A DNA stretch of 64,000 nucleotides, from NCBI RefSeq assembly GCF_041381155.1, contig NC_091137.1:18831655-18895654 (forward strand). Reading direction: 5' to 3'. The notes under the pieces were generated by a model that did no database searches, was not told the origin of the DNA, and saw only the letters and a program-made list of their open reading frames with translations. The position numbers and the translations under genes were made by a program. Shown here one piece after another: positions 12,951 to 64,000 of this stretch. How positions within the stretch are numbered: the stretch's first letter is position 1; each line of letters begins with the position of its first letter. The DNA is from Argopecten irradians. Its lineage: Eukaryota; Mollusca; Bivalvia; Pectinida; Pectinidae.

Positions 12951-14743
12951 TGCCATTTCGTCTTTTCGTCTTTTCGTCTTTTCGCCCCGAAAAGACGAGA
13001 ATTAAGAAACCTTAATTTTCGTCTTTTCGTCTTTTCGCCCCGAAAAGACGAAAATTAACAACTTTAAATTTCGTCTTTTCGCCGCGAAAAGACGAAAAGT
13101 CAAACACGAAAAGACGAAAGTGATACACGCTAATTAGCGACTTTGATTCTCGTCTTTTCGCCTTCAAAATTCTCGTCTTTTCGTCTTTTCGCCCCGAAAA
13201 GACGAAAATTAACAAACCTTAATTTTCGTCTTTTCGTCTTTTCGTCTTTTCGCCCCGAAAAGACGAAATTTAACAAACCTTAATTTTCGTCTTTTCGTCT
13301 TTTCGCCCCGAAAAGACGAAAATTAACAAACCTTAAATTTCGTCTTTTCGTCTTTTCGTCTTTTCGCCCCGAAAAGACGAAAATTAACAAACCTTAATTT
13401 TCGTCTTTTCGTCTTTTCGTCTTTTCGCCCCGAAAAGACGAAATTTAACAAACCTTAATTTTCGTCTTTTCGTCTTTTCGCCCCGAAAAGACGAAAATTA
13501 ACAAACCTTAAATTTCGTCTTTTCGTCTTTTCGCCCCGAAAAGACGAAAATTAACAAACCTTAATTTTCGTCTTTTCGTCTTTTCGCCTTCCGGTCTGGT
13601 GTGGAAGTCATTTTGAAATCTTTTTATCTTAATATTGACTTAATTGTTCAATATAGAAGCATCAAAGTAGTTTATGATAACAATCGATTTATTAAATTGA
13701 TAGTATTACAAGTATCTTCATCAATAACTAAGATTAGAAGTTTTAAAACAGAAGTCAACATGTTTGTTTACAGCAGTTACGTAGATTTCTCACACTTGTG
13801 CCACGTGCCACTAACAGATTCATCATTCCGCAAATCCTTTAGCGTGATTGATACATTTTTTAAAAATTCATTAATATCTTATTTTTTGTGTTCTAATCGC
13901 CCTCTTTAGCAATTACGCTTATCAAAACATTGCCGTGTAGATGCTAAACATAGCATTTACAGGAGTTGCCTCCCCTACACAACTTGGAAAAAAAAGTTGT
14001 CGGCGGGTATTATTTGAAAGCGTTTGAACCACGGATAAACTTGTTAACAAAATAATTTATGAAAGACAACTCGTGAAGACTTTGAGTTTAAAGGAAGGAC
14101 TTGTACCAAGAAATTGCTCAAATACAGTTAATTATAACAGTCAATCAGTAGGTACAATGTACTGTGTATTATTTGAAAAGACATTTTGACTACATACATG
14201 ACATGGTCTTCATCATAATTGTACATTAGAAATTACATTATAATCTCCGTCGTATATGATAGATGACAAAGTATATCTGTAATTTGTATTTTTTCGGGGC
14301 GAAAAGGCGAAAAGACGAAAATTAAGGTTTGTTAATTTTCGTCTTTTCGCCCCGAAAAGACGAAAAGACGAAATTTTAGGTTTGTTAATTTTCGTCTTTT
14401 CGCCCCGAAAAGACGAAAAGACGAAATTTAAGGTTTGTTAATTTTCGTCTTTTCGCCCCGAAAAGACGAAAAGACGAAAATTAAGGTTTGTTAATTTTCG
14501 TCTTTTCGGGGCGAAAAGACGAAATTTAAGGTTTGTAATTTTCGTCTTTTCGGGGCGAAAAGACGAAAAGACGAGATTTTTGAAGGCGAAAAGACGAAAA
14601 TTAAAGGCGCTAATTAGCGTGCTTCACTTTCGTCTTTTCGTGTTTGACTTTTCGTCTTTTCGTCGTTTCGCCGCGAAAAGACGAAATTTAAATTTGTTAA
14701 TTTTCGTCTTTTCGGGGCGAAAAGACGAAAAGACGAAATGGCA
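12951..14743. mobile_element. Foldback-like element with hairpin-repeat arms (CTTTTCGCCCCGAAAAG)
   Basis: The ends are inverted copies of TGCCATTTCGTCTTTTCG. The left arm (12,951-13,590) and right arm (about 14,287-14,743) are arrays of one unit in opposite orientations. Each unit carries the near-palindrome CTTTTCGCCCCGAAAAG flanked by TTAATTTTCGTC and its complement. Units are mostly 53 or 61 bp, differing by one 8-bp CGTCTTTT step. The 0.7-kb middle has no recognisable protein. No clear target duplication is visible. It sits about 170 bp upstream of the WW/CUE gene. Confidence 0.75.
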
Positions 14744-23900: not shown

Positions 23901-26900
23901 AATATTACATGAACTTGCAAGTCCTTTATATGTGAATCACAACATAGGTAATGTGTCTCAAAAGGTTAAAAGGCATGTATATATTTACTGTAACAGATAA
24001 TGTGTCATGAGTACAGAAAGAGTTAAAATATCATCCACGACTTACATTTTGATTTTGATAAGCACCCCACTTTATTACAATTTTCAGTGCCCTGGGCGCT
24101 AATTAAGGCGAATACGGTATATGTTATAAATGTTTATACATGTATAACAATATGAAGAATTCAATGAAAATACAAATACATTGTCCTTTTCTTTGATCTT
24201 ACGTCTGAATACATTTTATACTGTATTCCTTCTAATATTTTTTTTTTCTTTTTCTTTTTTTCAGGAGACAACCTACACAAAGGCAGCCAGTCATCACCCA
24301 CCAGCCAAGGACAGAATCTGCAAACAGGACACAAACAACAGGTCCTAACCCAGACCTAAGGATGGGGCCAGATAAGTCACTCCTTCTGTAAGTAAAACCC
24401 AGTACACCACATTATACAGTGTATAACCAATGGTCCAAAACCTAAGGATGGGACCAGATAAGTCACTCCTTCTGTAAGTAAAACCCAGTATACCACATTA
24501 TACAGTATATAATCAATGGTCCTAACCCAGACCTAAGGATGGGACCAGATAAGTCACTCCTTCTGTAAGTTATACCCTGTACACCACATTATACAGTATT
24601 TAACCAATGGTCCTAACCCAGACCTTAGGATGGGACCAGATAAGTCACTCCTTCTGTAAGTTATACCCTGTACACCACATTATACAGTATTTAACCAATG
24701 GTCCTAACCCAGACCTTAGGATGGGACCAGATAAGTCACTCCTTCTGTAAGTTATACCCTGTACACCACATTATACAGTATATAACCAATGGTCCTAACC
24801 CAGACCTTAGGATGGGACCAGATGAGAGTGTACATAATCTTGGGGAGCAATTTTACTTATTAATTGTACTTGCACTGTAAGTAGAATTCCCCACGTTCCC
24901 CTATATTCAGTACGCTTTCTTTGTACTGAACGTAACCACGTAATTGATTTCAATTCAATCTACTGCATTTTTATATCATCTTCACAAACTATCGTCGTGG
25001 GCATTACTTTTTCAGCAGCTGCGGCGACGTTGTCGTCAACATTTCACTTTAAAGTTTCTCGTTTAGCTCTGTTTCTCAAAAACTAATAGTCTAATCCTAA
25101 ACAATCTAATTGTTGCATTGAAGGATTCGTTTCAGGATGTAGGATTCAGGGGCTGTGAAACTTAATTATAATTATGCTGCATTTTATTTTTAGGTCATTT
25201 GATCTATTGTCATCATGCACCGTCTGTCGTCGTGCGCCGTTTGCCGTGCGACGTGCATAAACTTTTTATTTGAACATTTTCTTCTCAATAACCGAAAGGC
25301 TCAGGATACTCATATTGAGCCTGCAGCATGGCGGAATCAAGGGCTACTAAGTTTGTTCAAATGCAAATACCTTGACCTTCATTCAAGGTCACGGGGGTCA
25401 AGTAGGCTAAAATTTTTAAACAAATCCTTCTCAAGAACGGAAAGGCCCAGGGTTCTCATATTAGGCCTGTGACATGCTGGGATAAAGCGCTACCAAGTTT
25501 GTACAAATGAATTTCCTTGACCTTCAATCAAGGTCACAGGGGACAAATAGGCTAAAATCTTTATAAAACTTCTTGTGAACAACTAAAAGGCATAGAGACC
25601 TTATATTATGCCTGTGACATGCTTGGACGAATGGCTACCAAGTTAGTTCAAATCAATGGCCTTGACCTTCATTCAAGGCTAAAATCTTTAAACAAGTCTT
25701 TGTAAATAACCAAGAGGCCGAGAGGTATGATATTGGATTTGTAGCATGGTTGGGATCAAGGGACCTTCATTCATGATCTAATTCATCAAATATATCAGAA
25801 CCTGAACTTCTTTAAGGTCCATGGGCCTCTTGTTCATATTTGGCTTTGAGCAGCAAAAAAATGTTTCCCAACACCAAACTCTTATTTCTAACCAGTTATT
25901 TGACCTCTTATTAATCAGTAAAAATAACAACAACAAACATATATAGAGATGCAAAAGTAATTATTGTTATACCATCATTTGTTTAATTACAAAACATCAC
26001 CGAGTGTGTATACTGGGTATATGATTGTGATTTTTCCAAACCGCTGACACTACAGTTTCCTGGTTTCTTAGAATTTACTGAATATAACATTGGCTATTGA
26101 TGATTTATATATTTACAAATTTGAATTTAAAGTTGGCTGAATATCTAAGTAGGTCTTCAAAATTTCCTAACATAATCCATTTTCATCTTCGAAATTTTGT
26201 AGACTAGTAGCATATCAAAATTAAAACTTAAGTAAGCCTGTGTTTTCGTTAATATCATAACACTTTCCGAAACGTTTTGTGTCATTTAGTATAAGCACAA
26301 CCATTGTTTATTTTCTGTGTGATAACGTAAGGAAATGTCACATGGTTACTACAGTGTCACATATTTCTTTCACTGGTTCTCAATGATAATCATTGTCATC
26401 GTGTGTGCCTTCTCGCCAGAGTGTCATCTTCGATGTCGATGAGCTGATGAGCTGATGTAACATAACATTACCGGTTTGCCACTGTGGTTCTTTCTTGTCA
26501 ACCGTCCATGGCCAGAATTAACATCAAGAACATTGGGTTTAGGGATATAGGAGCTCTTCCTGTTTCCAAACTAGTGATTCACATATCGTATATGATGTTC
26601 CAGACTTCCCAGGCATGATGGAAAAGACATCAGATCCACATTCTTCGAACGGTTGAGTTGGTTCTTCTTAATTCATATGAAGAACAATTTTTTCATTATT
26701 GTGAACCCTCAGCGACCATAGATGGCACAGGTGAATTCTTTGAGGTCTGAAGTGAAGTTTCACTCTTTCCCAAGTTTGGAATGCACTGCAGAGAACTTTT
26801 TTCTGGAGAGACTTCAATGGTGTCTCCACGTATAAACCAGATGTGACACCACCAACACCTTCAAGGGAGTGAAGTTAGACCAGTGAAGACTCTCCAGAAA

Positions 26901-33477: not shown

Positions 33478-34345
33478 GCACCTATCTGAAACTAACCCAC
33501 CACCTATCTGAAAGTAAACCACAACTTATCTGAAACTAACCCAAAACCTATCTGAAAGTAACCCGCAACCTTTTTGAAAGTAATCCACTACCTATTTTAT
33601 GTAACCTACAACCTATCTGAAAGTAACCCACCACCTATCTGAAAGTAAACCACAACTTATCTGAAAGTAACCCACAACCTATCTGAAAGTAACCCGCAAC
33701 CTTTTTGAAAGTAATCCACTACCTATTTTAAGTAACCTACAGCCTATCTGCAAGTAACTCACCACCTATCTGAAAGTAACCAATCACCTATCTTAAAGTA
33801 ACCAATCACCTATTTGAAAGTAACCAATCACCTATTTGAAAGTAACCAATCACCTATTTGAAAGTAACCAATCACCTTTCATAAAGTAACCCACCGACTA
33901 ACTGCAATTTACCCACCACATATCTGAAATAACCCCCACCTATCTGAAAGTAACCCACCACCTATCTACAAGTAAAACCTATCTGAAGTAACCCACCACC
34001 TATCTACAAGTAACTCACCACCTATCTGAAAGTAACCAATCACCTATTTGAAAGTAACCAATCACCTTTCATAAAGTAACCCACCGACTAACTGCAATTT
34101 ACCCACCACATATCTGAAATAACCCCCACCTATCTGAAAGTAACCCACCACCTATCTACAAGTAAATCACCGCCTATCTGAAAGTAACCCAATACCACCA
34201 ATCTTGAAATAACCCACCACCTATCTAAAAGTAACCCACCACCTATCTGAAAGTAACCCGCCACCTATCTGAAAGTAACCCGCCACTTTTCTCAAAGTAA
34301 CCCACACCTATATCAAAGTAACCCACACCTATCTGATTATAACCA
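33478..34345. repeat. Minisatellite, about 23-bp unit (ACCTATCTGAAAGTAACCC)
   Basis: About 38 degenerate units of CACCTATCTGAAAGTAACCCAC. There is a higher-order step: the block around 33,880-33,975 (CATAAAGTAACCCACCGAC...CTACAAGTAAA) recurs about 184 bp later at 34,065-34,165. Noncoding. Confidence 0.9.
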
Positions 34346-42845: not shown

Positions 42846-43208
42846 TCACATAAAAATACATGTATAACAAACATATTGGTAATACTTAAATATAAGAACA
42901 AATTCATATTTAAATGACAAATATATGCTTAATTAACTTTTCGTATCAAACACCAGATATAGTATATATAGTATCATATATAGACATTAATATCACAGTT
43001 ACATTGGGCTTTATGAAAGGCGTTAATAAATTAACCACACACTCAAACACATCGCATTTATACAATATATCCCCATTTATAAGACCACAAAGTTACGAGC
43101 TCGTTTCTATAACAAACGTTTAATTAAAATGAACACACTCTAATGTATCTCATATATTCTACTCCACATTAAATGAACATTCTTTGGTACTCAAATATCA
43201 GTAACCAG

Positions 43209-43368
43209 GGACCAGTTTCGCGAACATTCTTTAACTTAGGGAAATCCCTTAACGTAAATATCCTCTGGGAAAACATTACATAAGTGACGGAAAGTTCCTT
43301 AACTTATGTGATGTTTTCTATGGAGAATCTTATATCAAGGAATTTAAAAATGCTCTTGAAACTGGGCC
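43209..43368. mobile_element. Hairpin MITE in the 3' UTR of BiP copy 1
   Basis: The ends are GGACCAGTTTC and its partner GAAACTGGGCC. An inner stem pairs ACATTACATAAGT with ACTTATGTGATGT. The matching element in copy 2 is at 55,341-55,526, so insertion predates that duplication. Confidence 0.65.
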
Positions 43369-43420
43369 TAATCACAATGAAAAGAACACATTCTCGAGTA
43401 CTACTGAAACTATCTGTGAT

Positions 43421-47076
<3,656 letters not shown>

Positions 47077-47618
47077 AATTCTCGGCTCCTACGAGTAATT
47101 ATATGTATACAGTATAATTTAAGATATTCTTTATTAGTGAATATAAATGTGATAAATCGTTTTGTGTCAATTATTAATGGCATATTGATGTTCTATTGTC
47201 TAGCATTATTCTTATGCTATTCATTATAATTACTATTTATTTGAATAAAACACGAAAAAAATGCATATTCTTGAACACATATTAATGTTTCTATAGTACT
47301 GTTTTATAAGATTTTGAATGTGCAGTTGTAAGCCTAGGTCTTAAAATATATAATTTATGGGACAATCAATATACCAATGTATTCGCTATATGAAATGACC
47401 GTATCATATAGTCATACATATTTTAGTCAATGAATGTTGTTAAATCCCATAAATTACATTTATAACAGTTTGTTTTCATTGTTCAACATAATTCTTGAAA
47501 TATAGTCCTATTTTTTCTATCGTTCTGTGCATATATATTTAACGGCAGGATAATTCAGACTAAGAGAAATATTTTATTCTTAAAAAAAATCCCTACATTT
47601 ATTACAATAGATACTTAC

Positions 47619-47884
47619 CCTTGTACTCCTTGTTGTTATTCAAGCGACTTCTGTATGTACTGTTTTCAGTCAATGTTTCTCCTATGCATTGTATGATAGT
47701 CGTCTAGTAAAGTCTCCGTACCGTCGTGTTTTAATTAATTGTTATTCTGTTTAGAAGAGTATGTCTGTGTAAATACATATTAGTGTATTTATACGCTATG
47801 TGTCCCAGAATAAGACAGTACCTGTGTGTCGTGTCAGTTAGTCTATGGGTGATGTTGTAGGGAGACTGGGGTGTTCCTGATTGG
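47619..47884 (-). promoter_or_regulatory. BiP copy 1 promoter and noncoding first exon
   Basis: A noncoding exon ends at 47,619 with donor AAGG|GTAAGTAT and splices to an acceptor at 47,089-47,090, 12 bases before the start codon. A TATA box TATAAATA lies at 47,786-47,793, which puts the start of transcription near 47,758. At 47,866-47,884 stands CCAAT-N9-CCCAG, one base pair swap from the ER-stress element CCAAT-N9-CCACG of BiP promoters. All three features recur in copy 2. Confidence 0.6.
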
Positions 47885-50199
47885 CCAAATCACACTAATA
47901 TGATGAAATCTAGTGTTCTAATTGTTTGATACGAGTTAAGTAGGCGGGTCAAAGTAGATAAGAATTCTGCGTATGACATTTTATTTACGTTTTGTGTATA
48001 TACCTCTCATGGTAGTTTAGTTACACGTTGCCTTTAGCAAAGTATAATCACTTTTCTCTAGTATTGCGTCAGCTGTAAACAGATTTGTCAGAATTATCTC
48101 CCTTTTGTCGTTGTAGGGTTGTAGTAATGTTATAAACAATGTTATCAAAATGATACTAAAATAATAATTTTCTCTAAACCATGAAAAAAACATGATAAAA
48201 TAAGGAGAGAGATGTGAATTTCATAGATATAAACCACTGGCTCGAAGTATATTATTGTTTATATAGACTAGTGTTAAATGAATTACATGAACGACATTTC
48301 AAGTGATTTCAAGTTAAATAACAACATGGACTCAATCGAAAGGGTTAATCAGTGGTATCTTGCAGAAGTAATATCGTTTTACATTAATGAAATGATACTT
48401 TAATAACTTATATGGATTAATTATTAAACCCATCTAAATTCATTTGTGATTTCTGTTGACCGTCAAATCATTATGGTCAATAAATTATAAATATAGTTAG
48501 AGTTCAGCCGAATAAATGGGTTTTGATCCTTGTATACAAAAACCTAAGATATACATTTCATATGTGTACAAGTTTTAAGCCCTTTCTATAATGAATAAAT
48601 GGGTGGATGGATGGTGGATGGATAGATAGATGGATAGATAATATTTTTTTTATTCCCTGCAAAAGACATGATTTATTTATTTATAATTATGAAATATTAA
48701 CACATTATATAACACAAAATTATTCACATATGACATACATACATATAAACATAAATCAAATTACCAACAACAAAAATACGTGTATACATGGACATTTGTA
48801 TGCTGTATGTTTTATACTTCTATTTGTTGACATCAGTTGAAGGTAAATTTACACATTTGGACATTTTATTTCACAGATTCATACTTTTTCTTCAGTTTTC
48901 ACAATACATATACAGTGTATAGAGAAATATAATTTGACCTAAACCTTCTGATAAAATGAGAGCCTTTCGTCATCACTAAACATTGTCAGCGGGATTGGAA
49001 AATATGGTTTATATAATGGTATTGTAATTCAGCAAGTGAAAAGTTAATGTGTGACGTATCAATGACTAATACATATTAGTTTGGGTACATATGCTGCATA
49101 GTTGGTAAGTCTGTTGAATGTGACAGGATCGTACCAGTAATCGAAACGTTCCGGTTCATAAGATTTGCACTGGAAGTTTCGGTTTAGTTTTGATTGAAAC
49201 GTTTAACAGATTCGTGACATTGCAATATCGCTTATCAAAACAAAACGTCTTCATTTTTTAATTATGTCAAGTAATTTGTAGCAGTTCATTATGAAATGTT
49301 TTATAATATCGACAGCTACAATTCGCCATAGACGCAAAAAGTGTTGTGACCATATCCCTAAGTTTAAGCATATATTGATTATTTTCTGAGATTATTATGG
49401 TTTGATACCAATGCAATTAAATAATGTCCACTTAAATCTGTGTTTATGAATTAAACACAAAACGTTCTGGGTCGATTGGCCTAGATAAAAAAAAGATGAG
49501 GCTTACGATGTTTTCGAATGGATATTTTGGGATTTACATAGTGTTTTCTGAATAAAAGTAAGAAAAATACAGAACTACTGGCAAGTTATGCAAAAATCCT
49601 GGATCTGCTGAACCGTGTCCAGTTTGTCAGCCGATCCCACGATAGGCCTATTATGAACAACTGACTGAAATGCTAAATCTGTTGTACATTTGAATCACTT
49701 CTTCTATATTTCATACATTGAAATTCATTATGTTCAACCCATTTACACTGTCAATGACATGCTTTCGTCGAGATCGTCATCTGAAAATATTGGAAGCCAT
49801 GTAACCATTTACTGTCTTCGACGTCGCCACAACAAGGTCATAAATTTCTATGAATCTAACGGGGATTAGATCATGAAAATAATCCAATCAAAACAGACGT
49901 TATATCAATATCATTTTAGCATGAATTTATTTTCATCTTTAATTTTCTATGTCTTCTCTTAAATACATGTATAGCATTGTTCACAATATTTTCTCCATAG
50001 ATATTTTATGGAAGTATCCATCTTTCTTTAATTGTTCTACGACAATTCAATTTTGTAGTTGATAGCAATATTAATTAGATTGTAATTTACTGATTTTAGT
50101 ATGTTTTATGGTCAATCAAACATACTTATAAAGATTTTTTCCGTGTAAATATGATAATATTACCTTGTCTCTGAAAAATGTGCTTATCTACTTTCTGCT
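47885..50199. other. Upstream DNA of BiP copy 1, no gene
   Basis: No coding exon recognised. An ATGG/ATAG tetranucleotide run lies at 48,600-48,640. The region to about 49,170 is shared with the ghost unit. All of it recurs almost unchanged at 60,270-62,598. Confidence 0.7.
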
Positions 50200-50539
50200 A
50201 AACTGACAAGAGACTGAATTTTTAGAATCTACTGGGGAAGTTGAAAACAGCAAGAGCTGCGAGTTGCTTTTGTCCAAAAAAAAGTCTTCTAAGTAGATTT
50301 TTATACAGGGATTTTAAGAACTGATCCATTTTGCGACCATTTTGAAAATGTGCCTTTTTTCGCTTTGAGTAGACCCAAAGTTTTACCATTTTTTGCTTAA
50401 ATTGTAGTGTGAAATGATACGGGTTTCTTTCACTATATTTTAACATTTAATGATATTTAGCGCTTTTATTTCTTACTCTAAACTATTGAAAAATAACAGA
50501 TATTGGGCAAAAAAGTAAGCACACGGACCCCCTATTTTT
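50200..50539 (-). mobile_element. MITE family B segment left of the LINE
   Basis: Runs from AAACTGACAAGAGACTGAA to CACACGGACCCCCTATTTTT. It recurs right of the LINE at 53,985-54,336 (about 93 percent by eye), and only the right copy continues into the rest of the MITE. Related to the family B element at 3305-4316. Confidence 0.65.
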
Positions 50540-50711
50540 GGAGATATTGTCTGGGATAATATAACAGTTGGACAAAGTAATCTTTTAGAAAACATTCAAC
50601 TTGAAGCAGCTAGGATCATTACCGGTGCCACCAAACTCACTAGTCATGATCGATTTTATACAGAATCTGGATTAGATACACTTATGAATAGAAGGCGAAA
50701 ACACAAAATCG

Positions 50712-51075
50712 TTAAAGAGGCTCCACCGATGACAAATGATATTTTTTCACTGTCAATAACAGGAGCAGACGATTTAGTATTTTTCTTCGGTTACGAAAGT
50801 TACTTACTTTATACCATTACCACCAGTGAAAAGTTTGAGCTTCTAATTTTATATCAAGATAGAAATATCAAAAAGAATTAATTACATCCTGAAAAAATCC
50901 CCTGGCACTATATCCTATATGGAATTAAGTACTGATTGCGCATTACTAAAGGCGAAATAAATTATTTTATATTATTTTTTTGTGTTAATTAGACATATAT
51001 ATACACGATTAAACACCAATTATTGTTCAAATGATGAATATCACTTATGCTCTGTCGGCGGTGGAGCATCTTTAA
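50712..51075. mobile_element. TTAA-flanked MITE, family A, in the LINE
   Basis: TTAA at 50,712-50,715 and 51,072-51,075. Inverted ends AGAGGCTCCACCG and AGATGCTCCACCG. Without it the LINE reads HKIVK-VHQIVHG in one frame, so the TTAA duplication is confirmed by the empty site. Confidence 0.85.
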
Positions 51076-51250
51076 AGTCCATCAGATTGTTCATGGTCAG
51101 TGCCCCCCTTACCTAACTAGCATGCTCCCAGCTCGTCGTCGTAATATTCATTCATACAACACAAGGGGAGCCGATCTTTCTATCAACCTCCATGCCGCAC
51201 AAACCTTTGCAAAGACTCCTTTCTGCCTTCTTCTGTGGACCTATGGAACT

Positions 51251-53180
51251 TACGGCGGCGTATTAGGGCCACTATATAATTTAATTTATCTTGTACGTAC
51301 AAGTTAGTATCTTGTACGTACAAGATAGTATCTTGTACGTACAAGTTAGTATCTTGTACGTACAAGATAGTATCTTGTACGTACAACTTAGTATCTTGTA
51401 CGTACAAGTTAGTATCTTGTACGTACAAGATAGTATCTTGTACGTACAACTTAGTATCTTGTACGTACAAGATAGTATCTTGTACGTACAACTTAGTATC
51501 TTGTACGTACAAGTTAGTATATTGTACGTACAACTTAGTATCTTGTACGTACAAGATAGTATCTTGTACGTACAAGATAGTATCTTGTACGTACAACTTA
51601 GTATCTTGTACGTACAACTTAGTATCTTGTACGTACAAGATAGTATCTTGTACGTACAAGTTACTATCTTGTACGTACAAGTTACTATCTTGTACGTACA
51701 ACTTATAGTATCTTGTACGTACAAGATAGTATCTTGTACGTACAACTTAGTATTTTGTACATACAAGTTGAGTTGAACTGCTGTTCATCACCGCAGAATT
51801 GAGTCACCCGCCTGATATTTTTCGTAATTAAAGATAGTCGGTCTAATTTGCATTGCTTCAAGTACGATCACAGGTTTATAAACTTATTTGACAATATTAA
51901 AAATATAGATATATATTAATGAGGACAATATCTTTTTCACAATCGTAATATGAAATTGCCGGATTATGAGTTGAAACTGTATAGTCACTTGCATTATTTT
52001 GAAACTGACACTGTATAGTTCCTTCCGAGGAAACTGTATAGTCGCTTGTTTTATAACAAGATACATTTAGTGATAAAATGGATATGATACATCTCCGATG
52101 AATGATAAGTTTTATCTATTAAAAAGAGGAGCAAACAAATACGTAATTTTCTTCAGTAATAAAAGTTAAATACTTCACACTTGTGCCATTATTGGAAAAG
52201 TTTGAGCATTTATTTTACTTCAGAATAGTAGTATTGAAAATAATTAACTGTCTCCGAAAACAATTTTAGGCATTATGCCCTAATTCGAATGATTTACTGA
52301 TTGCACAGACAACAAAAGCAAAACAAATTATTTCATATATGTTTTTGTGTTTATTAGACATATATACACACATCAATTATTGTCAAAATGATGATCATAG
52401 TTAATACTCTGTTATAAACATTTACATCTATATGTTCGGAAACTTATCACAGCATTACAACTCCACAACATGTCGCAAGGTATTCTTTTTTTCCCTTTGG
52501 CTTATACAAAGGGTACGTAATATACGTATAGCTTCATGCGATACCACGGTGACAGTAAATCAGCCACAGCCTTTAATACAGAGAGTTTCAACATTATACT
52601 ATCTTGTACGTACAAGATAGTAACTTGTACGTACAAGATACTATCTTGTACGTACAAGATACTAAGTTGTACGTACAAGATACTAACTTGTACGTACAAG
52701 ATACTAAGTTGTACGTACAAGATACTATCTTGTACGTACAAGATACTAACTTGTACGTACAAGATACTAAGTTGTACGTACAAGATACTATCTTGTACGT
52801 ACAAGATACTATCTTGTACGTACAAGATACTAAGTTGTACGTACAAGATACTATCTTGTACGTACAAGATACTAAGTTGTACGTACAAGATACTAACTTG
52901 TACGTACAAGATACTAACTTGTACGTACAAGATACTAACTTGTACGTACAAGATACTAAGTTGTACGTACAAGATACTAACTTGTACGTACAAGATACTA
53001 ACTTGTACGTACAAGATACTAACTTGTACGTACAAGATACTATCTTGTACGTACAATATACTATCTTGTACGTACAAGATACTAAGTTGTACGTACAAGA
53101 TACTAACTTGTACGTACAAGATACTAACTTGTACGTACAAGATAAATTAAATTATATAGTGGCCCTAATACGCCGCCGTA
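51251..53180. mobile_element. Foldback element with arms of 21-bp palindromic repeats
   Basis: Left end TACGGCGGCGTATTAGGGCC (51,251) and its exact complement ending at 53,180; GGAACT is duplicated at 51,245-51,250 and 53,181-53,186. After a shared 30-bp stretch (ACTATATAATTTAATTTATC) each arm becomes a tandem array of the 14-bp perfect palindrome CTTGTACGTACAAG plus a 7-bp spacer (TTAGTAT, ATAGTAT or complement). There are about 23 units at left (51,289-51,770) and about 26 at right (52,592-53,143). The 0.8-kb middle (51,771-52,591) has no protein; 52,120-52,425 looks like a decayed family A MITE. The layout resembles FB/Galileo foldback elements; superfamily uncertain. Confidence 0.85.
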
Positions 53181-53984
53181 GGAACTCGCTTCCGGACATT
53201 ATAAAATTTAATCCATCTATTACCTGTCTCAAACACTTCCTTAATACTGATATCCTAGCTGTCCCTCTCTATTATTATTATTGTAAAACAAGGCACGGCC
53301 AGATTCACCACTCCCGTCTTAGAATGCATTGCAGTTCTCTAAACTCTCATCTATATCATCGTAATCTTGAAGTTAGTCCTCGCTGCTCGTGTAACCAATC
53401 TGACGAAACTTCTGAACATTTCCTTCTCCATTGTCTAAATTACCAACAAACAAGAATGCTATGTTTCAGAAACCTACCCCATGACTATGATATTAACACT
53501 TTACTCTATGGTAACCCTAATATGCCCGATCATTACAATGTAAATATTTTTGTTAAGGTTCAAAATTTCATCAGTCCCTCAAACCGTTTCAAGTAGATAT
53601 AAATTATAAATACATATGTATCTATCAGAACTACTCTACTGTCCATTTTAAAACCAATCTGATCTTTTTCGTATATTGGTTATAAACTCATGGCCCGTGT
53701 TATTTTTACTAATGATCAAAAGTATATATGGCCGATTTATCAACAAATCTCTGGTTTTGTATGGCTGAAAAATAAACACCATTTCTCTTATCAATCCCTG
53801 CACCCTTCCCTTTCTCTACCAAAACACTGAACATTCTGAAATCAGTACTGTTCTATTGCTTATAATTTATATATATATGGAGACGAATTAACATAAGTAC
53901 AGTGTACTTGTTTCTGTATCCAACCTTTTTGACATGTATACTGTACTGTATCGTTATTGAATTGAATAAAATATTGTTTAAACC

Positions 53985-54891: not shown

Positions 54892-55340
54892 TAACATAAA
54901 AACAATCATATGTATATGTATTTTACAAATAAGTGAGAATAAATACTTTTACAACAATCATATTGATAACATATACATATAACAAAAAAATCATATTTGT
55001 ATGTATCAGTACAAATATATCATGAAATAACTTATCGTACAAAACATCAAATATAGTATCATATAAAAACATCACCCACCATTCATAGAAATTTATATCA
55101 CAGTAACTTTAAGGATTTATGGAAGCCGTATATAACTTTTCATCGTGTTAACCACACACTCAAACACATCGCATCAGTAAAATACATTCCAGTTTAAATA
55201 AGCATACAAATTATGAGCTCGATTCTAAAACAAGCGTTAAATTAAAAAGAACACACTCCCATGTATCTCATGTACTCATTATCTTACACTAAACTAAATT
55301 AACACACTCTCTGGTGCTCAAAGAAAATATCAGTTACTAT

Positions 55341-55526
55341 GGACCAGTTTTACGAACATTCCTCAACTTAACACAATTTCTGAACTTAAGTTTTCCATGT
55401 GAAAGCACATAGGATCACATAAGTGAAGGAAACTCCTTAACTTAGACGTTCTCTTTATTTTTTGTAATGCTTTCCTATGGAGAATGTTAACCTAAGGATT
55501 TAAAGAATGCACGTCAAACTGGGGCC
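55341..55526. mobile_element. Hairpin MITE in the 3' UTR of BiP copy 2
   Basis: Ends GGACCAGTTT and AAACTGGGGCC; counterpart of 43,209-43,368 but strongly diverged. Sequence becomes nearly identical between the two units just after its right end. Confidence 0.65.
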
Positions 55527-55578
55527 TAATCACAATGAAAAGAACACATTCTCGAGTACTACTGAAACTATCTATGAT

Positions 55579-59465
<3,887 letters not shown>

Positions 59466-60007
59466 AATTCTCGGTTCCTATGAGTAATTATATGTATACA
59501 GTATAATTTAAGATATTCTTTATTAGTGAATATAAATGTGATAAATCGTTTTGTGTCAATTGTTAATGGCATAGTGATGTTCTATTGTCTAGCATTATTC
59601 TTTTGTTATTCATTATAATTACTATTTATTTGAATAAAACACGAAAAAAATGCATATTCTTGAACACATATTAATGTTTCTATAGTACTGTTTTATAAGA
59701 TTTTGAATGTGCAGTTGTAAGCCTAGGTCTTAAATATATAATTAATGGGACAATCAATATACCAATGTATTCGCTATATGAAATGACCGTATCATATAGT
59801 CATACATATTTTAGTCAATGAATGTTGTTGATAACCCATAAATTACATTTATAACAGTTTGTTTTCATTGTTCAACATAATTCTTGAAATATAGTCCTAT
59901 TTTTTCTATCGTTCTGTGCATATATATTTAACGGCAGGATAATTCAGACTAAGAGAAATATTTTATTCTTAAAAAAAATCCCTACATTTATTACAATAGA
60001 TACTTAC

Positions 60008-60272
60008 CCTTGTACTCCTTGTTGTTATTCAAGCGACTTCTGTATGTACTGTTTTCAGTCAATGTTTCTCCTATGTATTGTATGATAGTCGTCTAGTAAA
60101 GTCTCCGTACCGTCGTGTTTTAATTAATTGTTATTCTGTTTAGAAGAGTATGTCTGTGTAAATACATATTAGTGTATTTATACGCTATGTGTCCCAGAAT
60201 AAGACAGTACCTGTGTGTCGTGTCAGTTAGTCTATGGTGATGTTGTAGGGAGACTGGGGTGTTCCTGATTGG
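60008..60272 (-). promoter_or_regulatory. BiP copy 2 promoter and noncoding first exon
   Basis: Same layout as copy 1: noncoding exon donor at 60,006-60,007 (AAGG|GTAAGTA), TATAAATA at 60,175-60,182 and CCAAT-N9-CCCAG at 60,254-60,272. The acceptor before the start codon is ACTCATAG|GAACC (exon edge about 59,477). Confidence 0.6.
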
Positions 60273-62598
60273 CCAAATCACACTAATATGATGAAATCTA
60301 GTGTTCTAATTGTTTGATACGAGTTAAGTAGGCGTGTCATAGTAGATAAGAATTCTGCGTATGACATTTTATTTACGTTTTGTGTATATTACTTTCATGG
60401 TAGTTTAGTTACACGTTGCCTTTAGCAAAGTATAATAACTTTTCTCTATTATTGCGTCAGCTGTAAACAGATTTGTCAGGATTATCTCCCTTTGGTCGTT
60501 GTAGGGTTGTAGTAATGTTATAAACAATGTTATCAAAATGATACTAAAATAATAATTTTCTCTAAACAATAAAAAAAACATGATAAAATAAGGAGACAGA
60601 TGTGAATTTCATAGATATAAACCACTGGCTCGAAGTATATTATTGTTTATATAGACTAGTGTTAAATGAATTACATGAACGACATTTCAAGTGATTTCAA
60701 GTTAAATAACAACATGGACTCAATCGAAAGGGTTAATCAGTGGTATCTTGCAGAAGTAATATCGTTTTACATTAATGAAATGATACTTTAATAACTTATA
60801 TGGATTAATTATTAAACCCATCTAAATTCATTTGTGATTTCTGTTGACCGTCAAATCATTATGGTCAATAAATTATAAATATAGTTAGAGTTCAGCCGAA
60901 TAAATGGGTTTTGATCCTTGTATACAAAAACCTAAGATATACATTTCATATGTGTACAAGTTTTAAGCCCTTTCTATAATGAATAAATGGGTGGATGGAT
61001 GGATGGATGGATGGATAGATAGATGGATAGATAGATAATTTTTTTTTTATTCCCTGCAAAAGACATGATTTATTTATTTATAATTATGAAATATTAACAC
61101 ATTATATAACACAAAATTATTCACATATGACATACATACATATAAACATAAATCAAATTACCAACAACAAAAATACGTGTATACATGGACATTTGTATGC
61201 TGTATGTTTTATACTTCTATTTGTTGACATCAGTTGAAGGTAAATTTACACATTTGGGACATTTTTATTTCACAGATTCATACTTTTTCTTCAGTTTTCA
61301 CAATACATATACAGTGTATAGAGAAATATAATTTGACCTAAACCTTCTGATAAAATGAGAGCCTTTCGTCATCACTAAACATTGTCAGCGGGATTGGAAA
61401 ATATGGTTTATATAATGGTATTGTAATTCAACAAGTGAAAAGTTAATGTGTGACGTATCAATGACTAATACATATTAGTTTGGGTACATATGCTGCATAG
61501 TTGGTAAGTCTGTTGAATGTGACAGGATCGTACCAGTAATCGAAACGTTCCGGTTCATAAGATTTGCACTGGAAGTTTCGGTTTAGTTTTGATTGAAACG
61601 TTTAACAGATTCGTGACATTGCAATATCGCTTATCAAAACAAAACGTCTTCATTTTTTAATTATGTCAAGTAATTTGTAGCAGTTCATTATGAAATGTTT
61701 TATAATATCGACAGCTACAATTCGCCATAGACGCAAAAAGTGTTGTGACCATACACCTAAGTTTAAGCATATATTGATTATTTTCTGAGATTATTATGGT
61801 TTGATACCAATGCAATTAAATAATGTCCACTTAAATCTGTGTTTATGAATTAAACACAAAACGTTCTGGGTCGATTGGCCTAGATAAAAAAAAGATGAGG
61901 CTTACGATGTTTTCGAATGGATATTTTGGGATTTACATAGTGTTTTCTGAATAAAAGTAAGAAAAATACAGAACTACTGGCAAGTTATGCAAAAATCCTG
62001 GATCTGCTGAACCGTGTCCAGTTTGTCAGCCGATCCCACGATAGGCCTATTATGAACAACTGACTGAAATGCTAAATCTGTTGTACATTTGAATCACTTC
62101 TTCTATATTTCATACATTGAAATTCATTATGTTCAACCCATTTACACTGTCAATGACATGCTTTCGTCGAGATCGGCATCTGAAAATATTGGAAGCCATG
62201 TAACCATTTACTGTCTTCGACGTCGCCACAACAAGGTCATAAATTTCTATGAATCTAACGGGGATTAGATCATGAAAATAATCCAATCAAAACAGACGTT
62301 ATATCAATATCATTTTAGCATGAATTTATTTTCATCTTTAATTTTCTATGTCTTCTCTTAAATACATGTATAGCATTGTTTACAATATTTTCTCCATAGA
62401 TATTTTATGGAAGTATCCATCTTTCTTTAATTGTTCTACGACAATTCAATTTTGTAGTTGATAGCAATATTAATTAGATTGTAATTTACTGATTTTAGTA
62501 TGTTTTATGGTCAATCAAACATACTTATAAAGATTTTTTCCGTGTAAATATGATAATATTACCTTGTCTCTGAAAAATGTGCTTATCTACTTTCTGCT
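60273..62598. other. Upstream DNA of BiP copy 2, no gene
   Basis: Near-identical copy of 47,885-50,199, with a few base changes and a slightly longer GGAT/ATAG run near 60,990-61,035. No coding exon recognised. Confidence 0.7.
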
Positions 62599-62938
62599 AA
62601 ACTGACAAGAGACTGAATTTTTAGAATCTACTGGGGAAGTTGAAAACAGCAAGAGCTGCGAGTTGCTTTTGTCCAAAAAAAAGTCTTCTAAGTAGATTTT
62701 TATACAGGGATTTTAAGAACTGATCCATTTTGCGACCATTTTGAAAATGTGCCTTTTTTCGCTTTGAGTAGACCCAAAGTTTTACCATTTTTTGCTTAAA
62801 TTGTAGTGTGAAATGATACGGGTTTCTTTCACTATATTTTAACATTTAATGATATTTAGCGCTTTTATTTCTTACTCTAAACTATTGAAAAATAACAGAT
62901 ATTGGGCAAAAAAGTAAGCACACGGACCCCCTATTTTT
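62599..62938 (-). mobile_element. MITE family B segment, unit 2 copy
   Basis: Copy of 50,200-50,539, virtually unchanged, ending CACACGGACCCCCTATTTTT at the LINE junction. Confidence 0.65.
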
Positions 62939-63654
62939 GGAGATATTGTCTGGGATAATATAACAGTTGGACAAAGTAATCTTTTAGAAAACATTCAACT
63001 TGAAGCAGCTAGGATCATTACCGGTGCCACCAAACTCACTAGTCATGATCGATTTTATACAGAATCTGGATTAGATACACTTATGAATAGAAGGCGAAAA
63101 CACAAAATCGTTAAAGAGGCTCCACCGATGACAAATGATATTTTTTCACTGTCAATAACAGGAGCAGACGATTTAGTATTTTTCTTCGGTTACGAAAGTT
63201 ACTTACTTTATACCCATTACCACACAGTGAAAAGTTTGAGCTTCTAATTTTATATCAAGATAGAAATATCAAAAAAAAGAATTAATTACATCCTGAAAAA
63301 ATCCCGTGGCACTATATTTCCTATATGGAATTAAGTAATGATTGCGCATTACTAAAGGCGAAATAAATTATTTTATATTATTTTTTTGTGTTAATTGACA
63401 TATATATACTCGATTAAACACCAATTATTGTTCAAATGATGAATATCACTTATGCTCTGTCGGCGGTGGAGCATCTTTAAAGTCCATCAGATTGTTCATG
63501 GTCAGTGCCCCCCTTACCTAACTAGCATGCTCCCAGCTCGTCGTCCGTAATATTCATTTCATACACACAATGGGGAGCCGATCTTTCTATCAACCTCCAT
63601 GCCGCACAAAACCTTTGCAAAGACTCCTTTCTGCCTTCTTCTGTCTATGGAACT
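62939..63654 (+). mobile_element. LINE C-terminal fragment, unit 2 copy
   Basis: Copy of the LINE part at 50,540-51,250 with the same abrupt start GDIVWDN and the same family A MITE inside. Several single-base insertions and deletions relative to unit 1 occur after about 63,200. It ends at the GGAACT target site (63,649-63,654). Confidence 0.8.
63111..63480. mobile_element. TTAA-flanked MITE, family A, unit 2 copy
   Basis: TTAA at 63,111-63,114 and 63,477-63,480, with the same ends as 50,712-51,075. Confidence 0.8.
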
Positions 63655-64000
63655 TGCGGCGTATTAGGGCCACTATATAATTTAATTTATCTTGTACGTA
63701 CAAGTTAGTATCTTGTACGTACAAGATAGTATCTTGTACGTACAACTTAGTATCTTGTACGTACAAGTTAGTATCTTGTACGTACAAGATAGTATCTTGT
63801 ACGTACAACTTAGTATCTTGTACGTACAAGATAGTATCTTGTACGTACAACTTAGTATCTTGTACGTACAAGATAGTATCTTGTACGTACAACTTAGTAT
63901 CTTGTACGTACAAGTTAGTATATTGTACGTACAAGTTAGTATCTTGTACGTACAACTTAGTATCTTGTACGTACAAGATAGAATCTTGTACGTACAAGAT
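63655..64000. mobile_element. 21-bp-palindrome foldback element, left arm only (cut by window end)
   Basis: Begins TGCGGCGTATTAGGGCC, three bases shorter than unit 1, then ACTATATAATTTAATTTATC and about 14 units of CTTGTACGTACAAG with 7-bp spacers up to the window edge. Confidence 0.85.

Follow-up and report, generated by a model that had tools for sequence, protein, structure and literature searches.

The window analyzed here, a stretch of 64,000 nucleotides from Argopecten irradians (contig NC_091137.1, positions 18,831,655–18,895,654 of the forward strand), carries a 1,930-bp foldback-shaped element at positions 51251–53180, with the hexanucleotide GGAACT read directly on both sides (51245–51250 and 53181–53186, no strand assigned). 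The element starts with the 20-mer TACGGCGGCGTATTAGGGCC (51251–51270), whose reverse complement lies at 53161–53180, and this core, with which the family was later searched, forms the outermost part of a perfect terminal inverted repeat of 74 bp (51251–51324 on the plus strand and 53107–53180 on the minus strand). An earlier note on this DNA had described exactly complementary ends of 20 bp between two copies of GGAACT; direct reading bears out both statements, and the perfect repeat is longer than was claimed. Beyond it, imperfect inverted arms extend up to 451 nt with 96% identity. Both arms are arrays of a 21-bp unit, TATCTTGTACGTACAAGTTAG, built round the palindrome CTTGTACGTACAAG, with 22.9 copies on the left (51287–51769, plus strand) and 26.1 copies on the right (52596–53144, minus strand), and 126 nt of the single strand have a folding energy of −50.2 kcal/mol, versus −13.7 kcal/mol for shuffled sequences. 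The arrays enclose a filler of about 820 bp (51770–52595, no strand assigned), which is common to many copies and contains no open frame of more than 72 codons. Adjoining the right array, a stretch of the filler (52432–52576, minus strand) is 74% like the beginning of the transposase gene in a coding copy described below, L094, and has the same placement relative to the array as in that copy. Even when up to three mismatches are allowed, the 20-mer has no further match in the window (chance expectation, 0.00). A dispersed repeat of about 330 bp, 68–72% alike between copies, is seen at 582–918, 50726–51055, 52095–52412 (inside the filler), and 63125–63460 (a duplicate of 50726–51055), and the self-comparison of the window revealed other local repeat clusters at 12956–14738, 24341–24823, and 33479–34336.

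The element is inserted into a LINE on the plus strand, whose parts used in the empty-site query are 51095–51250 on the 5′ side and 53181–53396 on the 3′ side. On the 3′ side, the LINE frame continues to a stop at 53596 and gives a zf-RVT match with an E value of 0.0045, below the cut-off. Removal of the element and one GGAACT leaves flanks that join in a single frame as ...FLPSSVDLWNSLPDIIKFNPS.... We searched the genome with these joined flanks, scoring the best 40 of 56 candidates, and 33 of the 41 matches listed cross the site uninterrupted, the best with 97% identity over 366/366 bp. The window copy splits the query into segments 1–156 and 151–366, which overlap by 6 bp; the remaining eight listed matches comprise four one-sided ones and two halves each of this copy and of its duplicate, the left half of the latter nominally extending to query position 188. 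The earlier note had taken the LINE frame as proof of the boundaries; these uninterrupted genome matches are stronger evidence.

A second element starts in the same LINE at 63655 (plus strand) and runs through the last position, 64000, past the window to about 65667. It is flanked by the same GGAACT, lacks 3 bp at its left end, and is a segmental duplicate, not a second insertion. Two self-matches of the window, 43031–45567 with 55148–57738 at 93% and 45571–51596 with 57960–63997 at 98%, the latter continuing further, represent this tandem segmental duplication. Both units carry the LINE with the foldback element as well as a partial BiP-like Hsp70 gene, its C-terminal part (43421–44227 and 55579–56385, minus strand), one of the two parts having been checked against the PDB.

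The earlier note proposed a genome search for the paired 20-bp terminus, and in the 846-Mb genome the exact 20-mer occurs 332 times, 167 forward and 165 reverse, whereas the reversed 20-mer used as a control occurs 0 times. The 319 termini that were placed comprise 97 inward-facing neighbor pairs and 125 unpaired ends, with a pair spacing of 156–3,121 bp (median 1,803, 97 pairs), 3,121 bp being the longest exact pair in the family; the constancy of the terminus across copies follows by construction from gathering the family with the exact 20-mer. An apparent 20-kb pair was rejected, its right end really pairing with a nearer end that has one mismatch. The 20-mer was found 0 times in viral contigs and once in prokaryote genomes, which is about the chance level by estimate. 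Termini that diverge after 12 bp were found at 10 places versus 4 for the control, and two of these adjoin known ends.

We compared 37 elements. They come from the window and from 34 loci, of which two supply both an outer and an inner pair. All 37 have perfect terminal repeats, of 22–115 bp. The 20-mer is followed in most copies by ACT and then by one of a few subterminal types, while ACT is not kept in some unpaired ends; oriented by the filler, the end types are A/A in 7 elements, B/B in 8, A/B in 4, B/A in 3, A/C in 5, and other in 1. The filler is present, whole or in part, in 28 of the 37 elements and absent from nine. A genome search with the filler, in which the best 40 of 4,132 candidates were scored, listed 42 matches, 40 of them nearly full length at 91–100% identity, the window and its duplicate included. 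Of the three longest pairs, which were fetched, two have a split filler and the third holds two filler copies. Three other loci were noted in passing. At L078 (C2:48884507), both termini are kept in a remnant of 47 bp that is flanked by CACGAC/CACAAC and lies beside an unknown coding repeat, and the best profile match of the neighboring frame is MMS21_N with an E value of only 0.13; at L052 (C16:33223318–33231900), 8 kb between two foldback ends on the same strand hold Gypsy-like frames; at L093, a tRNA-like sequence was seen by eye close behind a truncated terminus.

Target duplications were examined in 38 pairs, of which 34 come from the first 100 places listed, three were picked for length, and one is the window element. 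An exact duplication of 6 bp is found in 26 pairs, of 7 bp in two, and of 5 bp in one, while nine have none, three of these agreeing at 5/6 positions; with shuffled right flanks, 1.1 pairs with 6 bp are expected versus 25/37 observed. Seven of the 38 pairs (L012, L017, L019, L025, L029, L031, and L049) form a group with shared flanks and the hexamer CTACCG, six by flank alignment and L049 by the 6-mer, CTACCG being intact in six. Since all 40 listed matches to the host repeat of this group, among 820 candidates, run through the site uninterrupted, we counted the group as a single insertion that was multiplied along with its host repeat. Outside it, 20 pairs have exact 6-bp duplications, which are G/C-rich at the outer positions and A/T-rich within (GC by position, 0.75, 0.20, 0.10, 0.00, 0.15, and 0.70). 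The exact boundaries and the 6-bp duplication, recurrent in 26 of 38 pairs, 20 of them outside the group, bear out the foldback-shaped mobile element that the earlier note had recognized.

A transposase-like gene was found behind one of the 57 unpaired ends that were read 1.4 kb inward. This copy, L094 (C5:8412290–8413719), was read from one end and displays the exact terminus and 34 array units. A gene on the minus strand follows; its ATG, at C5:8412904, comes 70 bp after the last unit's core. With 450 bp more (L124), the frame reaches 276 residues up to a GTAAGT that resembles a splice donor. Its product matches the Pfam integrase core rva_4, which we take to be the core of IS3EU transposases, with 94.3 bits (cut-off 26) and an E value of 1e-26, and gives matches under the cut-offs to rve of Pfam (E 0.0028) and to the IS481 (E 1.1e-6) and IS3 (E 0.0014) models of NCBIfam. 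Asp131, Asp190, and Glu230, with 39 residues between the last two, are the likely catalytic residues predicted from this frame. No CxxC pair precedes the integrase core, and a PDB search with the first 218 residues returned 0 matches at E 1. The gene is tied to the element by its position and by a shared 141-bp stretch only: this stretch, which begins 32 bp before the ATG, is matched at 72–77% in 22 of the 37 gene-less elements, with 0 hits in 20 shuffles, and in three gene-less elements 30–32 residues match the L094 product at 59–63%. Because these 22 elements have, next to the array, filler sequence similar to the beginning of the L094 gene, the gene-less elements look like deletion derivatives of an L094-like copy, which has since diverged. 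The long copy with a transposase between the same ends that the earlier note envisaged is therefore seen in part, as a gene behind the same terminus, the second end lying outside the sequence read.

No second coding copy was recognized, mostly by eye, in the 97 pairs, of which 38 were read, nor in 56 other unpaired ends; of 106 unpaired ends that have no listed filler match nearby, 42 lie outside the loci read. The frame check covered the 57 ends read inward and four earlier ones and gave 36 frames of at least 95 codons in 24 of the 61 ends, array frames excluded; three were submitted to Pfam and the others judged by eye, some being runs of X over N stretches. A genome search with the IS481 profile listed 63 matches, and the 12 loci read were all Gypsy-like by eye; a GingerRoot-like query listed 150 matches, at no more than 36% identity, and yielded no loci. 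Of the 213 places found in these integrase searches, 141 were compared with the map of exact termini, and none of these lies inside an element, while five lie within 20 kb versus about one to two expected; such lists are insensitive to L094, whose IS481 score is 28 bits versus 86 for the lowest match listed.

These features point to a known lineage. According to the description in PMC10045372, the termini of complete IS3EU families are TA..TA and their target duplications usually 6 bp long, GingerRoot belongs to the same lineage, the enzymes of both are without HHCC, and the first Asp of IS3EU lies 100–300 residues from the N-terminus; fungal IS3EU families are described as ending in TAYGG..CCRTA (PMC12730594). 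The window element likewise ends in TA..TA, as TACGG..CCGTA, its family has mostly 6-bp duplications, and L094 contains an integrase-like DDE gene with D131 in the same range and without a CxxC pair before the core. We therefore regard the window element, IS3EU being compared by description, as very probably a DNA transposon of the IS3EU/GingerRoot superfamily, foldback-shaped and non-autonomous, that inserted into the LINE and most likely derives by deletion from an autonomous element with an integrase-like DDE enzyme. L094/L124, read from one end, is a candidate for the autonomous relative in the same genome. In the proposed scheme, the autonomous element would encode the integrase-like DDE transposase, and internal deletion would give rise to the gene-less foldback copies, on whose terminal repeat the enzyme would act in trans; a cut staggered by 6 bp in the coding end of the LINE would then lead to insertion with duplication of GGAACT. 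As a guess, the 21-bp palindromes could be repeated binding sites, and the number of array units might shift by slippage or unequal exchange.

It is also conceivable, although we advance it only tentatively, that an IS3EU/GingerRoot lineage acquired the full foldback architecture, autonomous copy included, the arms of dozens of 21-bp palindromes being multiplied transposase-binding sites; this reading gains weight because the coding copy, too, has 34 array units. The long arrays of 21-bp palindromes may set the arms apart from the IS3EU/GingerRoot families described so far, and no foldback IS3EU was among the papers listed in the literature searches. In another bivalve, the oyster Crassostrea gigas, the tandem repeats CgiSat35 and CgiSat47, with units of 690 and 129 bp, are annotated as IS3EU in a table of PMC8268682 and resemble the present arrays, by description, in tying tandem repeats to this superfamily.

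An origin from another superfamily with 6-bp duplications, as a derivative of Polinton, hAT6, or Dada, is very unlikely. Polinton termini are AG..CT and hAT termini CA..TG, neither of which fits the TA..TA found here. Dada elements have no terminal inverted repeats and insert into small RNA genes, whereas perfect repeats are present here in all 37 elements and, as far as the window copy is concerned, the target is a LINE and a search of the element region against Rfam and for tRNAs gave no match. Moreover, the L094 gene matches IS481/IS3 models, although an integrase is also found in Polinton. Duplications of 6 bp are nonetheless reported for Dada-U6, for Polinton (in the account of PMC10045372), and for hAT6, by the title of a reference cited in PMC12730594. 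HHCC is said to be missing from Polinton, too (same account in PMC10045372), so that the lack of a CxxC pair in L094 does not separate it from IS3EU. Polinton/Maverick is a large element with a polymerase and other genes; the longest exact pair here measures 3,121 bp, and the coding copy was read from one end.

The long inverted arms of tandem repeats, their variable length, and the non-coding middle recall the classical foldback elements, those related to Mutator (FB, Tetris) or to P (Galileo), with which 6-bp duplications would have to arise by happenstance. Tetris, a Mutator foldback of Drosophila virilis, is described in PMC4079207 as sharing this architecture, but with units of about 220 bp, versus 21 bp here, and duplications of 8–10 bp, a length found in none of the 38 pairs; Galileo of Drosophila, as described, shares long, internally repetitive inverted arms and belongs to the P superfamily. 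As the coding copy L094 has an integrase core, such an affiliation is extremely improbable. We give just as little credence to a superfamily whose transposase is still undescribed: there is but one coding copy, incompletely read, yet a curated integrase core model recognizes its gene, and the ends agree with those of a superfamily already described. That the copies were only ever carried along with larger repeats or duplications has a negligible probability and is refuted as an overall explanation: flank sequence or its 6-mer is shared by a minority of 7/38 pairs and the neighbor at 63655 is a duplicate of the window copy, and to these applies the refuting condition of the earlier note, that the same flanks always occur together, but the 31 other pairs stand outside the group, 20 of them with exact 6-bp duplications of their own.

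The suggestion of the earlier note that the element may belong to an undescribed family is partly right. A new non-autonomous family, probably of IS3EU/GingerRoot with foldback arms, is what we describe, and a 17-mer of the terminus has no occurrence in the literature text searched; the kind itself was already known, 6-bp duplications and TA..TA termini having been published for IS3EU/GingerRoot. IS3EU is nowhere named in the main text of a survey that searched bivalves for DDE transposons with 17 superfamily profiles (PMC10294476). The family is well delimited, has readable empty sites, and, for a superfamily that is seldom annotated, supplies a candidate for the autonomous partner. If an IS3EU/GingerRoot lineage did acquire the full foldback architecture, this shape would have arisen not only in Mutator and P but also in a superfamily with integrase-like enzymes, and, should the coding copy be confirmed, foldback architecture would reach the integrase-like transposons.
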